NCBI RefSeq assembly: GCF_000685295.1
Contig: NZ_ARYL01000002.1
Coordinates: 62,001 to 126,000, forward strand
DNA from: Hyphomonas oceanitis SCH89
Lineage (GTDB): Bacteria > Pseudomonadota > Alphaproteobacteria > Caulobacterales > Hyphomonadaceae
Direction of reading: 5' to 3'
Length of the DNA: 64,000 nt
This document shows, in pieces, positions 352 through 33,543 of the stretch (position 1 is its first letter; the number at the start of each line of letters is the position of its first letter). Both the position numbers and the translations under genes were made by a program. The notes below the pieces were generated by a model that saw only the letters and a program-made list of their open reading frames with translations, searched no databases and was not told where the DNA came from.

Positions 352-2220
352 CTATTCAGCCTGTTTGGATTCTGCGATCCAGGTGTCGACATTCTGTTCG
401 AGCACGGCTAGTGGCACGGCGCCGTCCCGCAACACGACGTCATGGAAATCGCGAATGTCAAACTGGTCGCCCAAGGCGGTCTTTGCGGTCTGGCGCAGTT
501 CGACGATTTTCAGCATCCCGATCTTGTAGGCCGTGGCCTGTCCCGGCATCACGATATAACGCTCGATGGCCTTCTTGCAGTCGCCCTCGGGGTTTGGCGT
601 ATTGTCCAGCAGGTACTGGATCGCCTGTTCGCGGGTCCAGTGCTTGTCATGGATGCCGGTATCGACCACGAGCCTGGCAGCACGCCAGATTTCCATCGCG
701 AGACGGCCAAAATCATCATACGGATCAGAGTAGTAGCCCATTTCTTTTGGCAGCAGCTCTGAATAGAGCCCCCAGCCTTCGGTATAGGCCGTGTAGCCGC
801 CATACTTGCGGAAGCTCGGGATGCCTTCGAGTTCCTGCGCCAGCGCGATTTGCATATGGTGGCCCGGAATACCTTCATGGAAGGCAAGCGCCTGCATCTG
901 GTAGGTCGGCATGTCCTGCATGCGATAGAGATTGGCGTAATATGTGCCGGGACGGCTGCCATCCGGAGCGGGGCGTGAATAGAACGCCTTTCCGGCCGAC
1001 TTTTCGCGGAACGGCTCGACGGCCTTCACGATCAGCTCTGCCTTCGGGAATGTCTTGAACACTTCGGGCAGGTCGCCGCGCATCTGGTCAATCGCTGCGG
1101 TTGCTTCGGCCAGGTATTCGGCTTTGCCTTCCTCCGTATTCGGTTTGAAGAATTGCGGATCAATCCGCATGAATTCGAAGAATTCCTTCAGCGTCCCCTC
1201 AAAGCCGACCTCGACCATGATGCCGCGCATCTCGTCCTGAATGCGGGCAACTTCCGCGAGACCGAGATTATGGATCTCGTCGGCGCTCATGTCGGTCGTG
1301 GTGATATGCTTCAGGCGCATGGCATAATAGGCATCCGCGTCAGGCAGCTTCCAGATACCGTCATCTGTCGTGGCCACCTCAGCTTGCGCCTTCATTTCGG
1401 CGATCGCGGCTTCGTAGGCTGGGCCTACTTTCTCAACCAGCGCAGTCTTGGCGTCGTCCATCAGTGTGTCGGCTTCGGCCTGTGGGATCGTGCCGGCCTC
1501 AACCAGTGCCTCGACCTTGCCCCTGAAATCTGCCAATAGCGGGCTGTCGGGCGTCCAGTTCGCGGCAAGCGGTGGAAAGGGCTCGCCTTTGATGACACTG
1601 CGGGAATCAGCGAGGACATAGTCGTAGACAAAGCGTGGCGGCATGATGCCTTTCGCCGCAGCGGCGCGCGCGTTGGCAACATTCTGGCCGAGATATTCCG
1701 GAATGCCATTGAGGCGCGAGATATAGGCCTTGGCATCCGCCAGGCTTGTCACCTTGTGCTGGTTCACGAGGAAGGCGGGAATGCCCGATTGCACGCCGTG
1801 CATCTGGTTGAAGATGTATTCGTGGTCGCGGAAGGGGAACTGGGCTTCGGCATCGGCCAGCTCATATTCCGCCAGCCGCCAGGAGAGTTTCGCCTGCGGG
1901 TCGAGCTTTTCGTAGTCAAAGGACTCCTTCATTTCCGCAACGGTGGCGCGCTGCAGTTCAAGGTCACCGAGCGCATGTGCCTCTGTAACGTCGTCCCATT
2001 GGCCATAGTCGTCCTTGATGCCGAGATAGGTCTGCCTCATCGGGCTGCGCGCGACCATTTCCTGAAATTTGACTTCAAACCAATCGTTTAGCCGGGCGCT
2101 TTCGTCCACGGTGACGTCGGCTACGGTCAGCACCTCGGTTTCGGGCACTCCCGATTGGGTCGGGCTGGTGCACGCGGCGAGCAGCAAAACAGCTGCGATG
2201 GCAGTGGCAGTACGCATCAT
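352..2220 (-). CDS. DUF885 family lipoprotein, putative zinc metallopeptidase
   Basis: The protein has 622 residues. The N-terminus carries a lipoprotein signal ending in LLLAACTS, so export and lipidation at that Cys are expected. Near residue 447 it has HEGIPGHHMQ, the conserved His-Glu-x3-His-His signature of DUF885 (PF05960), followed near residue 477 by YTEGWGLYSE, whose Glu probably completes a zinc site. Family members look like gluzincin-type peptidases, but the substrate is unknown. Two tandem ATGs open the gene; the first (2218-2220) is preceded by GGAG at a suitable distance. The length is normal for the family. It is divergent from cckA, and the shared 197-bp region contains four GANTC sites. 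Confidence 0.85.
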   Translation of the reverse strand: MMRTATAIAAVLLLAACTSPTQSGVPETEVLTVADVTVDESARLNDWFEVKFQEMVARSPMRQTYLGIKDDYGQWDDVTEAHALGDLELQRATVAEMKESFDYEKLDPQAKLSWRLAEYELADAEAQFPFRDHEYIFNQMHGVQSGIPAFLVNQHKVTSLADAKAYISRLNGIPEYLGQNVANARAAAAKGIMPPRFVYDYVLADSRSVIKGEPFPPLAANWTPDSPLLADFRGKVEALVEAGTIPQAEADTLMDDAKTALVEKVGPAYEAAIAEMKAQAEVATTDDGIWKLPDADAYYAMRLKHITTTDMSADEIHNLGLAEVARIQDEMRGIMVEVGFEGTLKEFFEFMRIDPQFFKPNTEEGKAEYLAEATAAIDQMRGDLPEVFKTFPKAELIVKAVEPFREKSAGKAFYSRPAPDGSRPGTYYANLYRMQDMPTYQMQALAFHEGIPGHHMQIALAQELEGIPSFRKYGGYTAYTEGWGLYSELLPKEMGYYSDPYDDFGRLAMEIWRAARLVVDTGIHDKHWTREQAIQYLLDNTPNPEGDCKKAIERYIVMPGQATAYKIGMLKIVELRQTAKTALGDQFDIRDFHDVVLRDGAVPLAVLEQNVDTWIAESKQAE

Positions 2221-29702: not shown

Positions 29703-30848
29703 TCAGCTGACGGCGTCTGCCGCCAGCGTCACTTCAAGACCGTCATACGCGCTTGTATCGTCGCCATCCTTGGCCACATAATTCGGCCACGCGCGCATAT
29801 AGTCCACGAACGCTGTGCTCAGGCCCTGTGCGTTCAGCCAGGCTTCCGGCACCGGCAAAGGCGGCGACGCATAGGCCGCGTCCCGGCGCACGCGCTCGGG
29901 GAAGTCATGCCGCAGGATCGCCCCGCGCCCGATCACCACGAAATCGCATCCCGCGTCCAGCACGCTCACCGCCGTTGCCGCATCCATGATCTTGCCTGCC
30001 GCGCCAAGGCGGATCTTGCCCCGGTCCAGCGCTGTGAACAGCGACACCAGCGTCTGGCCCTTGAAGGCCTCGTCGGCGGGCTCCTTGTTCACGTCCCAGG
30101 CCGACAGGTCGAAGAAGTCGATCACCTGCTCGGCAAACACGCGCTTGGTCACGGTCAGCATCTCGCCCAGATCAAGGCCAAAGCGTTCTGGCGACAGGCG
30201 CAGGCCAAGCTGGAAGTCCGGCCCCGTTGCGGCGCGAATGCCATTCACAATCTCGAACAACAGGCGCGCCCGGTTCTCCAGGCTGCCGCCATAGGCATCC
30301 TCGCGCTTGTTGATCTCCGCCGACAGGAATTGCGCGATGATATAGCCATGCGCGCCATGCACTTCCACGCCGTCAAACCCGGCCTTTTTCGCGCGCACTG
30401 CCGCCGCAATGAAATCATCGCGCAGCTGCTCCACTTCCGCCAGCGTCAGGCCGCGCACGCCCTTGTCCGCCTCGTCCGACGGGCCCACCGGCACGCCGAC
30501 AAGATCGGCCGGCGAACGGTCGCCTGCATGGTGCAGCTGCAGCGACGAGACCGCGCCCCTGGCCTTCAGCCCGGCGGCCAGCCGCGTCAGGCCCTCGATA
30601 TGTTCATCCCCGAATGCGCCGATCTGGCCCGGAAAGCCCTGACCCACGGCCTGTACATGCGCCGCCGCCGTCATCACCAGGCCAAAGCCGCCTGTCGCCC
30701 GTAGGGTCAGCCAGTGATATTCCTCATCCGACAGGGTTCCGTCGGGATGGCTCTGCGTATTGGTCAGCGGCGCCAGCATGAACCGGTTCTTCCACGCGGG
30801 CCCATGGGCCAGTGTCAGTGTTTCAAACAGGGGAGCGGTTGTCATCAT
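29703..30848 (-). CDS. NADH:flavin oxidoreductase (Old Yellow Enzyme family)
   Basis: The protein has 381 residues. It is an FMN TIM barrel. Characteristic segments are FMLAPLTNTQSHPDG at the N-terminus, SSLQLHHAGD, the active-site HGAHGYIIAQFLS and the INKREDAYGGSLENRARL segment. A C-terminal VIGRGAILRHDFP holds the FMN phosphate. OYE enzymes reduce activated C=C bonds; the natural substrate is unknown. Two tandem ATGs (30848, 30845) follow GAGG. An inverted repeat at 30948-30964 lies about 100 bp upstream. Confidence 0.88.
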   Translation of the reverse strand: MMTTAPLFETLTLAHGPAWKNRFMLAPLTNTQSHPDGTLSDEEYHWLTLRATGGFGLVMTAAAHVQAVGQGFPGQIGAFGDEHIEGLTRLAAGLKARGAVSSLQLHHAGDRSPADLVGVPVGPSDEADKGVRGLTLAEVEQLRDDFIAAAVRAKKAGFDGVEVHGAHGYIIAQFLSAEINKREDAYGGSLENRARLLFEIVNGIRAATGPDFQLGLRLSPERFGLDLGEMLTVTKRVFAEQVIDFFDLSAWDVNKEPADEAFKGQTLVSLFTALDRGKIRLGAAGKIMDAATAVSVLDAGCDFVVIGRGAILRHDFPERVRRDAAYASPPLPVPEAWLNAQGLSTAFVDYMRAWPNYVAKDGDDTSAYDGLEVTLAADAVS

Positions 30849-30947
30849 GGGCCTCGTGCAGGGTCTGATCGGTTGCGAACGCCGCACGCGACAGCGCCGA
30901 CCCAAGCAAGATGGGCCCGCCCCCGCCAATGGCAACATATCGTGTTG

Positions 30948-30964
30948 GTTTAGCGGGGCTAAAC
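30948..30964. promoter_or_regulatory. Perfect inverted repeat GTTTAGC-N3-GCTAAAC
   Basis: Seven-base perfect arms separated by GGG, located 100-116 bp upstream of the OYE gene. Its symmetry and position suggest a repressor or activator site. No regulator gene is adjacent, so the binding protein is unknown. Confidence 0.35.
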
Positions 30965-31015
30965 TTGAATAACCTTGCGGTAGGGGCCTGCGTCGCATCG
31001 TGCCCCAAATTGTAA

Positions 31016-31116
31016 GAAATCCCCCCACTTTTCCCACCCCCTCCCACCGCGCGTATACTGCGCGCCATGCACCCGGCTCACGCTCATCTTTATGCGCACG
31101 TCCATGTCGTCTTCTG
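31016..31116 (+). repeat. Left copy of ~101-bp direct repeat (promoter and first codons of a small gene)
   Basis: This matches 32195-32296. The last 56 bases (31061-31116) are identical to 32241-32296. The first ~45 bases differ at about six positions and one gap. Homology stops abruptly after CTTCTG on this side. Confidence 0.9.
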
Positions 31117-31129
31117 CGGACTTATGTAG
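31067..31129 (+). pseudogene. Truncated 5' copy of the small gene at 32247
   Basis: Starting at ATG 31067, the first 16 codons (MHPAHAHLYAHVHVVF) are identical to those of the gene at 32247. The frame then reads CGLM and stops at 31127-31129. A -10-like TATACT (31054-31059) stands seven bases before the ATG, as in the intact copy. It may still be transcribed. It appears to be the broken remnant left by the insertion. Confidence 0.6.
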
Positions 31130-31171
31130 CAGACGCGCCAAGGGGCAGCGGACATGATTAAGCTGCTAGCA

Positions 31172-32050
31172 TCAATCTTGGTCTGGATCGTATCTAGCCA
31201 TCCGAGTGCTGAATGGAGAGACATCAGTGGCGCGGGCGTCATACCGGGGCTCGACAGAGCGGTAATGCGCAGTAACGGTTTCAACTTTCTTGAAGACCGT
31301 TCGGTACGTGACAATGGCCTCGACAGAGATGGAAATAGTTCCGTCTTTCATCGCCTCCTCATAGTCGGCAAGACGGCTGTCCTTAAGCTCGCTGTGCAAA
31401 GTCGCTAAGTTGTGCGGATCGATTGTTTTGAGCCCCTCTTCCACATTCGTGGGCAGCGGTTCATTCAATTTTACCTCATCTCCAACCTTGATCTTAAGAC
31501 GGTGGGTGGCGCCAAAATCGAGTGTTGGAGTATTCCCGGCATTCGTCCAATGGGAAATAATAAGGACGCCGCAATGTTTGCCGTTTTCCCTGAACAGCTC
31601 AATAGTCATGCGGTTACTTACCGGGTACGCGACAGTTTGAGCCTCGCCAATTTGGCGGGTTACGCGAACGGCGTCCTGGGCGGCGAGAGTTGCTGAGGCA
31701 GCTTCTTTGAGAGTGATGGCGATATAGACAACACCGACAGCGGTCACGACCAGCATGAGCAAAGCCCACTTTGCCATATCTTGCTGGGCTTTCAGGTCAT
31801 AGTAATCGGTGGATTGTTCATATGGGGGTGTGAACGCCTTCGTAAGGCACGTCGGAGCATCAATCAGCGCGCTCGTAGATACGCATTCGATAAAGCCTTT
31901 ATTCTCATACTCGGAAGCGGCATTGTTGCGCTCTGTGCGATGTATGTGGCTATAAACGAGCCATACTGCTAAGCAGATAACGCCAGCAAGAAAGATTGAG
32001 ACGATTAGTCCTCGATGCTTAGGCTGCTCACTCCCGTTGCGCTCAGACAT
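31172..32050 (-). CDS. Two-TM membrane protein of unknown function (insertion cargo)
   Basis: The protein has 292 residues. TM1 is near 13-33 (LIVSIFLAGVICLAVWLVY). A ~55-residue extracytoplasmic loop contains two Cys. A DLKAQQDMAKWALLMLV stretch leads into TM2, ending in YIAITLKEAASATLAAQDAV. A C-terminal ~150-residue soluble domain is probably cytoplasmic. From memory, proteins with this DLxAQxxMAxWA-TM-TLxxA layout are frequent single hypothetical genes in proteobacterial genomic islands; no function is established. Codon use and composition are AT-richer than all neighbours, which points to recent transfer. There is no strong ribosome-binding site. Confidence 0.7.
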   Translation of the reverse strand: MSERNGSEQPKHRGLIVSIFLAGVICLAVWLVYSHIHRTERNNAASEYENKGFIECVSTSALIDAPTCLTKAFTPPYEQSTDYYDLKAQQDMAKWALLMLVVTAVGVVYIAITLKEAASATLAAQDAVRVTRQIGEAQTVAYPVSNRMTIELFRENGKHCGVLIISHWTNAGNTPTLDFGATHRLKIKVGDEVKLNEPLPTNVEEGLKTIDPHNLATLHSELKDSRLADYEEAMKDGTISISVEAIVTYRTVFKKVETVTAHYRSVEPRYDARATDVSPFSTRMARYDPDQD

Positions 32051-32194
32051 TGTAGTATGAAAGCCCCAGTGAACTTCCCCCTACAGATCTTGTTGCGACT
32101 GTCGGCACCGTTCCCATAAAACCAAGTCTCCTCAAGCTCTTCGGCTCGGTAACTATACCCGATTCCCCACAACTTGAGTTGCGCATTTCTGTGG

Positions 32195-32296
32195 GAAATC
32201 CCCCCATTTTTCCTCACCCCCTCCCACTGGGCGTATAATCCGCGCCATGCACCCGGCTCACGCTCATCTTTATGCGCACGTCCATGTCGTCTTCTG
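32195..32296 (+). repeat. Right copy of ~101-bp direct repeat
   Basis: Partner of 31016-31116. The last 56 bases are identical to the left copy. This copy carries the better -10 (TATAAT) and leads into the intact gene at 32247. Confidence 0.9.
32234..32239 (+). promoter_or_regulatory. Consensus -10 immediately before ATG, probable leaderless start
   Basis: A perfect TATAAT ends seven bases before ATG 32247 and no ribosome-binding site fits between. Transcription would begin at or next to the A of the ATG, giving a leaderless mRNA, which is common in Caulobacterales. No clear -35 is seen. Confidence 0.45.
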
Positions 32297-32609
32297 GCCA
32301 TGGCTGTGGCTGCAATTGTGGAACCTGAACCGCTGGATGAAGGAGAGCGGGCAGGGCCTGCTCATCTCCGTCGACCGCTGCGGCACGATCTATGTGGACG
32401 CCATATCCGACGCGCCGGAACAGGGGCCGCGCAGCATCAGCGCGCCCGTCTCGCCGCGCCTCGCGGCAGCGCTAGCGCCTGAAATTGAAACATCTCCGTA
32501 TCCCCGGCGAAAGCCGGGGTCTCATGCAATCCTGTCCCTGCTCGCCTCCGCGAGAGATCCCGGCCTCCGCCGGGAATACGGCCACTTGGGCCCCATACCG
32601 GACACCTGA
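32247..32609 (+). CDS. Small His/Trp-rich hypothetical protein
   Basis: The frame gives 120 residues. The N-terminus is MHPAHAHLYAHVHVVFWPWL, then LQLWNLNRWMKESGQGL. The many His and Trp residues suggest membrane association, and possibly metal contact; this is inference. The conserved-looking part ends near residue 85 (APVSPRLAAALAPE). The remaining ~35 residues translate through a palindromic repeat (32498-32580) and are probably a read-through tail. I do not recognise a family. The existence of a duplicated start at 31067 supports this being a real gene. Confidence 0.6.
   Translation: MHPAHAHLYAHVHVVFWPWLWLQLWNLNRWMKESGQGLLISVDRCGTIYVDAISDAPEQGPRSISAPVSPRLAAALAPEIETSPYPRRKPGSHAILSLLASARDPGLRREYGHLGPIPDT
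32498..32580. repeat. REP-like palindromic element 1
   Basis: Two small perfect hairpins, CCCCGGC-GAAA-GCCGGGG (32502-32519) and CCCGGC-CTCC-GCCGGG (32559-32574), are themselves arranged as imperfect inverted repeats. This paired-hairpin layout is typical of bacterial REP/BIME elements and similar repeats in alphaproteobacterial genomes. Confidence 0.6.
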
Positions 32610-32694
32610 CCCGCAATCCAATCCCCGAAAACCCGAGACCACCCTCCAGGCGCCCTCACAGGCGCCGCATGTGCAGCGTTTTATGTTACGCCGC

Positions 32695-32788
32695 AGACCC
32701 CTGCGCAGGCGGGGGTCCATGGACCAATTGCTCCCCAAGAGGCGTGTTGCCTGTTCCGGTCCATGGATGCCTGCCTGCGCAGGCAACT
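32695..32788. repeat. REP-like palindromic element 2
   Basis: Imperfect inverted arms 32695-32725 and 32758-32788 share CCTGCGCAGGC and TCCATGGACC around a ~32-base centre. It sits between the small gene and the end of truA. Its sequence differs from element 1. Confidence 0.55.
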
Positions 32789-32805
32789 TCGGACGGGGGG
32801 CTCAC

Positions 32806-33543
32806 TCAGTCGTAATCCACTTTCTCAAGGAACAGCCCGTCCGGCGGTGAGACCGGCCCGCAGGCCTTGCGGTCTGCCGCGTCCAGTATCTGCGTCATCC
32901 AGCGCGCATCGCGCTTGCCGCGCCCCACTTCCACCAGCGAGCCGACCATCGAGCGCACCTGCCGGTGCAGGAAGCTCTGCGCCGACAGCGTACATTCGAT
33001 GCGGTCGCCATAGCGGGCGACATCAAACTTATCGAGCGTCTTGACCGGGCTCTTCGCCTGGCATTCCACATCGCGGAACGTGGTGAAATCATGCGTGCCG
33101 AGCAGAACCTGCGCCGCCTCATGCATCCGGTTTGCGTCCAGCTTCGGCGAGATGCGCCACGCGAGGCCGTTCTCCACCGTCAGGTTGGCGCGCCGGTTGA
33201 TGATGACAAAGCGATAGTGGCGCGCCCTGGCGCTGAACCGCGCGTGGAAATCCTCGTCCACCTTTTCCGCCTTCAGCACGGCAATCGGGTGGGGCCGCAA
33301 ATGCGCGTTGAGCGCGTCGGCCACCTTGCCGGGGCGGTCAATCGCAAAGTCGCAATGCGCCACCTGTCCCATCGCGTGCACGCCGCTATCGGTGCGCCCC
33401 GCGCCATATATCTCGACAGGCCCGCCATCCAGCGCCGCAGCGGCCTCTTCCAGCGCGCCCTGAACCGTCGGCTTGCCCGGCAGCCGCATCCAGCCCTGAT
33501 AAGGCCCGCCATGATATTCGATGAGAAGTTTGTAACGCGCCAT
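32806..33543 (-). CDS. truA: tRNA pseudouridine(38-40) synthase TruA
   Basis: The protein has 245 residues. It isomerises uridines 38-40 in the anticodon stem-loop. The start MARYKLLIEYHGGPYQGW and the catalytic GAGRTDSGVHA (Asp near residue 52) are diagnostic. The C-terminal FLHRQVRSMVGSLVEVGRG is also conserved. ATG 33543 is chosen by alignment; the open frame extends upstream into the GNAT gene. It is last in a def-fmt-GNAT-truA string. Confidence 0.95.
   Translation of the reverse strand: MARYKLLIEYHGGPYQGWMRLPGKPTVQGALEEAAAALDGGPVEIYGAGRTDSGVHAMGQVAHCDFAIDRPGKVADALNAHLRPHPIAVLKAEKVDEDFHARFSARARHYRFVIINRRANLTVENGLAWRISPKLDANRMHEAAQVLLGTHDFTTFRDVECQAKSPVKTLDKFDVARYGDRIECTLSAQSFLHRQVRSMVGSLVEVGRGKRDARWMTQILDAADRKACGPVSPPDGLFLEKVDYD

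Follow-up and report, generated by a model that had tools for sequence, protein, structure and literature searches.

Tn7-like elements are the best-known case in which a protein guides the choice of the insertion site. Both Tn6022 and Tsy are led by TnsF to 10 conserved bp within the Walker B motif of comM (PMC10293859, in part), and the main text of that article contains no mention of IS1595. The IS1595 family exhibits transposases of the PF12762/PF12760 type and 8-bp target duplications (PMC8101967, in part), and ISNha5 carries passenger genes that include regulators (PMC11891212, in part). MTnSag1 and tISCpe8, IS1595-type elements described as mobilizable by conjugation, resemble the elements reported here in combining an IS1595-family DDE transposase with other genes (PMC5704250, in part). 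PMC3004938 and PMC10667641 (both in part) contributed no further facts to the comparison. Neither codon-specific insertion nor a selector was found for IS1595 elements in the portion of the literature on IS1595 targeting that was covered.

The locus studied here lies in a window of 64,000 nucleotides from Hyphomonas oceanitis SCH89 (contig NZ_ARYL01000002.1, positions 62,001 to 126,000). It comprises a re-formed gene and, next to it, a member of a known transposon family that has been truncated. The insert very probably represents the first ~1.07 kb, from the left, of an IS1595-family transposon that carried passenger genes and belongs to a group that may use a selector. We take this transposon to be most like the ISNha5 group. 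The parts of the locus are listed below (G numbers denote genomes, L numbers loci).

31021..31116, + strand: left copy of the repeat, with the old promoter, codons 1-16 and two bases of codon 17 of a small gene, now severed (repeat alignment)
31109..31116, + strand: left half of the 8-bp target duplication GTCTTCTG, which flanks the G039 element on both sides
31117..31141, + strand: left TIR CGGACTTATGTAGCAGACGCGCCAA of an IS1595-type transposon, its first 20 bases equal to one end of the G039 element
31172..32050, - strand: P2TM passenger gene, 292 aa, the sole ORF reported in the insert, with relatives inside the G039 and G052 elements
32008..32188, - strand: 5'-truncated DUF6471 gene (PF20075, E 1.3e-9, model positions 11-65 of 65)
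32188..32190, no strand: junction between the transposon and the upstream sequence of the gene (alignments to relatives)
32190..32296, + strand: right copy of the repeat, with the promoter (TATAAT), codons 1-16 and two bases (repeat alignment)
32247..32609, + strand: intact small FWPW gene, 120 aa, LYAHVHVVFWPWLWLQLW...PDT, one of a multi-copy family

The two direct repeats (31021-31116 and 32201-32296, spacing 1180) are 91% alike over 96 nt without gaps and share an identical core of 56 bp, as the original prediction of ~101-bp repeats with 56 identical bases had described. In the 51 nt 5' of the ATG the copies differ by five mismatches and two gap columns; compared with 0/56 changes in the core, five or seven promoter changes correspond to Fisher p values of 0.021 or 0.005. 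The predicted contrast between a diverged promoter part and an identical core was thus confirmed, and a simple recent tandem duplication does fail to explain this uneven divergence. Homology also breaks on the left as anticipated; its exact end is the second base of codon 17 rather than the end of codon 16, and this base forms the right edge of the 8-bp target duplication. The left copy, whose upstream flank is collinear with that of G064, ends in GTCTTCTG and runs on into CGGACTTATGTAGCAGACGC. The insert (31117-32188) is AT-richer than its surroundings, as had been noticed, with 51.7% G+C versus 64.7% and 64.6% in the flanks. A 61-bp probe containing the core matched just the two window copies (E <= 0.001) in the organism's own draft genome (G000, 4.28 Mb, 188 contigs).

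The P2TM passenger, in which two hydrophobic stretches were recognized by eye, belongs to a common component of this transposon group and shows 27% and 29% identity with its relatives in the G039 and G052 elements, respectively. It matched no Pfam or NCBIfam family above cut-off, no PHROGs family at E <= 0.1 and no PADLOC family at E <= 1, and a PADLOC search of the passenger together with the small FWPW gene gave no match; a wider search of genome contigs identified one relative, in Sphingobium SYK-6. Next to it, positions 32037-32188 align (73%) with the part of the G052 element that separates its passenger from its transposase. A right terminal repeat of the window element was not found. 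Judged by the traits of IS1595, the remnant has lost its transposase gene and retains the left half of the 8-bp duplication beside the TIR. In the draft genome a single transposon end was detected; no source element was found, and no related transposase either, in a search that had no positive control there. The insert indeed contains no recombinase and the gene is open again downstream, both as predicted; the absence, initially read as a possible mark of a minimal or non-autonomous element, is best explained by truncation. Rfam searches yielded three matches in window positions 30800-32900, all below the gathering score, and none at the gathering score in six loci with elements.

The same locus was compared in related genomes. 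In G064, of the same genus, both flanks are collinear with the window (89-90%) and enclose one gene start with one repeat copy and no insert; this single-copy site is the empty site that the original prediction had proposed to look for, and it establishes the insertion. In the G064 gene, 4 extra bp located ~4 bp 3' of the insertion point cause a frameshift. In G039, a two-ended 3770-bp (3.77-kb) IS1595-family element interrupts the gene at the very base used in the window; its ends both read CGGACTTATGTAGCA inward, with GTCTTCTG on either side, and its transposase matches PF12762 (E 3e-39) and PF12760 (E 2e-12). The left copy of the window leads into the same end as that of the G039 element, identical over 20 bases; the passenger lies on the 5' side of the gene in the window and on the 3' side in G039. 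In G065, an element in the orientation of the window occupies the same codon of another copy of the FWPW gene, its ends located on two contigs with CTGTTCTG on both sides. The right ends of the G039 and G065 elements continue directly into the rest of the gene. Because orientation or gene copy differs, the window, G039 and G065 represent separate insertions. Of 105 genomes of the family, 14 were hit by a 200-bp probe spanning the right copy and the gene; in several of these the hit was to a diverged member of the gene family.

The target itself belongs to a dispersed family, detected in 37 of 42 genomes of the genus with up to 17 matches each. Its N-termini are very similar within some genomes, and the C-terminal half of the small gene varies strongly between relatives, with the end PDT(S) mostly kept. 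By eye, family members (L118-L137) exhibit a TATACT-like box ~7 nt before the ATG (the genes may be leaderless) and, past the stop codon, a conserved stretch resembling a hairpin. In the window, palindromic repeats were seen by eye within the coding sequence of the small gene, towards its 3' end (32495-32585), and others lie just past the gene (32691-32792).

Transposon ends of this type were detected in 25 of 105 genomes of the family by a loose 3-mismatch pattern, whose control was noisy in that the reversed pattern also matches, and in 10 of 385 genomes of the class and 49 of 398 of the order, where there were no control matches among the matches listed; the samples overlap. From the stretches fetched, 86 distinct ends were read. 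Two ends with identical 8-bp target duplications were recovered at 25 of 45 loci examined; at the other 20 no pair passed, mostly with the second end absent from the stretch and, at L225 and L230, because the duplications did not match. The 25 two-ended elements measure 2.39-6.76 kb, the shortest being L093, in which no transposase was found. Fourteen of them occupy three codon sites: eight lie in comM at LDELP|EF (or EY), five in a GT2 glycosyltransferase gene at GGTSN|HF, HM or VF, and one at the FWPW site, which also holds two incomplete cases (G065 and the window); the remaining 11 lie elsewhere. Further cases occur in comM (G647, G323, G477 and G108) and in GT2 (G534, G748, G083 and G292). 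At L220, Pfam detected Mg_chelatase (ComM) in both separate halves of the target, split at model position 117-118, and GT2 was detected, with halves kept apart, in both halves of L226 and the right half of L094; the other comM and GT2 assignments are based on motifs, and comM in L219 and L223 was read from a frame other than the longest. Strand comparison revealed both orientations at comM, at GT2 and at the FWPW site; therefore, the insertions are not all inherited. Elements in comM occur in hosts from four families.

Insertions were also observed in other contexts. The end of an element lies ~8-9 bp after a tRNA-Gln gene in L269 (G160; near 1981-2063, ARAGORN 1990-2063, minus strand). Single insertions at L228 (G495; beside IACPCALGLATP), L234 (G386) and L236 (G249) hit further coding motifs, in genes that by their sequence we take to be P-type ATPase-like, transporter-like and relaxase-like, respectively.

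The elements share a typical order of TIR, P2TM, DUF6471, transposase, variable cargo, CCwHTH and TIR, with exceptions: the order differs in G628, and P2TM is missing in, for example, G006 and G590. Iterated profile searches (E 1e-3) in 27 elements, namely the 25 two-ended ones plus L225 and L230, detected CCwHTH in all 27, the transposase in 26, DUF6471 in 25 and P2TM in 20. CCwHTH is a small coiled-coil/winged-helix-like protein of 99-209 aa (fold judged by eye) that matched no Pfam family above cut-off. Besides that of G039, the transposase of G528 was tested by Pfam (9e-37 for PF12762 and 1e-13 for PF12760), and 26 of the 27 elements contain a relative of these two transposases. The cargo includes SocA/Panacea antitoxin-like genes (G039, G045) and DUF7946/DUF7947 (G025). 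P2TM evolves very fast, with a median end branch of 2.43 (20 rows), beside a conserved DUF6471 with 0.24 (25 rows), a pairing that may hint at a conflict-related role.

With a DDE_Tnp_IS1595 transposase that has an N-terminal zinc ribbon (PF12762 and PF12760, in the two relatives tested) and with 8-bp duplications, the relatives of the window element share both traits of the IS1595 family. The ISNha5 group is characterized by ends CGGnnTT, lengths of about 3.4-7.9 kb and passenger genes; our ends and passengers match, but our 25 elements span 2.39-6.76 kb. Unlike the IS1595 and ISNha5 elements in the literature covered, ours recur at exact codons and have a candidate selector. The comM site LDELP|EF, which we take to be Walker B, would place these insertions in the same region as those of Tn6022 and Tsy. 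The machinery differs: Tn6022 and Tsy use Tn7 machinery or a tyrosine recombinase together with TnsF, whereas our elements combine an IS1595 DDE transposase, 8-bp duplications and CCwHTH. Tn7-like transposons combine a TnsB-type transposase with TnsC and a TnsD/TnsF selector. The role proposed below for CCwHTH resembles that of TnsD/TnsF of Tn7, but our transposase is unrelated; the two tested by Pfam are IS1595-type, and Tns homology was tested in part of the variable cargo.

The phylogeny of CCwHTH follows the target. With the four target labels, which were known before the tree was built, the CCwHTH tree requires three label changes, the minimum (shuffled mean 12.8; 0/200 shuffles as low), and places comM on one side of a branch with support 93/90. 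When three long rows were left out, comM again fell on one side (100/99) and a GT2 clade was not rejected (p 0.52). In contrast, the transposase tree requires eight label changes, as did an earlier one with 31 rows, and AU tests, from which the long-branched G628 row (L219) was left out, rejected a comM clade (p 6.5e-5) and a GT2 clade (p 3e-56) of transposases. DUF6471 and P2TM were discarded as selectors on finding that their trees do not sort by target (12 label changes versus 12.0 in shuffles, and nine versus 9.6). A guide-like element sequence matching the target was also rejected: own targets generally matched no better than others, and the own target was best in 1/25 (L095).

The match between CCwHTH and target was further assessed with elements whose CCwHTH lay outside the tree, scored at least 60 bits to the nearest member and had a readable target (n=18). 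Eight of the 18 were found in the predicted one of the three genes, compared with 3.2 expected by shuffling (p 6.5e-5), a procedure that treats the elements as independent, which they may not be. All eight were among the 14 whose nearest member was of the comM, GT2 or FWPW type. Seven lay at the same codon (G647, G748, G065, G323, G477, G108 and G292), the CCwHTH of G065 being an 83-aa fragment at a contig end; the eighth, G462, lay at another codon of comM, and counting it as a miss gives p 0.0002. The six misses had comM- or GT2-like CCwHTH proteins (G785, G249, a decayed element in G583 C7, G409, the second G386 copy and G286). None of the four elements nearest to 'other' members (G774, G005, G160 and G258) was at the three sites. 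The contrast between these two groups is weak (Fisher, 8/14 versus 0/4, p 0.09; with weak cases 8/17 versus 0/5, p 0.12). Adding four weaker cases (G244, in a GT2-like gene at another codon, SYK-6, G290 and G365) gave 8/22 versus 3.0 expected (p 7.5e-5). Candidates dropped for lack of a readable end were G412, G182, G349 and four weak G458 matches, beside one of which (C12) an end had been listed. The reading of CCwHTH as a selector thus draws good support from the contrast between the trees and from new cases in excess of chance, although it falls short of a strict rule.

On balance, we lean towards the view that CCwHTH, by binding the target, guides the transposase to a particular DNA site within a motif of conserved coding sequence and constitutes an exchangeable selector. 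By the same moderate preference, different selector lineages would steer unrelated IS1595-type transposases to comM Walker B, GT2 GGTSN|HF and FWPW, amounting to an independent form of Tn7-like targeting. A possible but rather unlikely alternative is that the recurrent targets reflect a preference of the transposase or genes whose loss is tolerated, CCwHTH acting only as a regulator of transposase expression. The weak consensus GANWWNTC in the 27 duplication sites, 16 of which come from the three recurrent targets, points in this direction, as does the partial clustering of target labels on the transposase tree (1/200 shuffles as low). Against it, coincident insertion pairs would be expected by chance at ~0.0006 (a rough value with an assumed number of sites), and the transposases at comM and at GT2 do not form clades, while CCwHTH sorts by target. 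Transposase preference may nonetheless account for part of the target choice.

Returning to the window, the transposon probably entered the small gene in its FWPW codons, with GTCTTCTG on one side of the insertion point and GCC on the other. The right part of the element, with the transposase, any cargo, the selector gene and the right TIR, would then have been lost and replaced by a fresh gene copy from about base -57 onward, a replacement that would have made the gene open again. We infer, at roughly even odds, that this second copy arose by recombination with an uninterrupted allele, homologous within the gene and illegitimate inside the transposon. Homology-facilitated illegitimate recombination is a process known from transformation studies, and the second gene copy is consistent with its pairing of a homologous with an illegitimate junction; unlike in that process, here the product alone is seen, and no donor carrying the promoter variant of the right copy was recovered. 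The left promoter differs from that of G064 by three mismatches and two gap columns and from that of G039 by two mismatches and two gap columns. The right promoter shows 6-7 mismatches to G039 and G064, five of them private (counted by eye) and including TATACT to TATAAT, and is followed by a coding start nearly identical to that of G064. The right promoter may also have diverged in place. In an analysis of sliding divergence, made to look for a foreign origin of the right gene copy, private differences were raised at 32297-32797 (0.079 and 0.216, the second bin containing 134 gap columns and repeats); the other bins were mostly 0.004-0.065, with 0.088 and 0.108 elsewhere.

An improbable alternative is aborted transposition, in which one end was joined, replication stalled ~1.07 kb into the element and repair attached the free end to the target 107 bp upstream. 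Such an event would produce the truncated element and the long target duplication in a single step, and would fit the perfect left end, the random-looking right break and the duplication abutting the TIR. However, the copies would have been born identical, and the promoter differences contrast with an unchanged core. Moreover, among 22 loci with a readable end, including six others with <2 kb of inner sequence, a long repeat adjoining the transposon end was found in the window only; the 34-bp repeat of L099 is of a different form.

Similarly improbable is a tandem pair of genes, the transposon having entered the first copy before a deletion fused the interior of the element to the promoter of the second. 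G049 offers a parallel, with two copies ~5.2 kb apart whose promoters have diverged and whose coding starts are identical, but 9% contamination is given for its assembly, the second of its copies sits at the end of a contig, and G064, G039 and G041 are single-copy at the locus. The G049 copies (L035, 4513-5198 and 9708-10393) lie around katG-like and transposase-like genes and a truncated truA (names by eye), and the pair may be an assembly artefact at the contig end.

An integrase-type site-specific element, with the ~100-bp repeat as attachment site and its own promoter brought along as originally proposed, is very improbable: direct repeats do surround the insert, a single-copy site is known and integration into the 5' end of the gene stands, but the left edge is a DDE TIR with an 8-bp duplication and not an att site, the G039 and G065 elements at the same codon duplicate 8 bp only, bring no gene start and do not rebuild the gene, and the genome searches made recovered no other cargo between two ~100-bp repeat copies.

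With recombination with an uninterrupted allele as the preferred route, the window provides an example of how a transposon-split gene can become open again. Repeated insertion at an exact codon together with a candidate exchangeable selector would be new and directly testable. If the proposed role of CCwHTH is true, the comM Walker B region is favoured by a further type of transposon, which raises the question of why this site is preferred. A far simpler targeting system, and a test bed for the steering of DDE transposases, would then be available in elements a few kilobases long that have a single DDE transposase and a candidate selector of ~150 aa.
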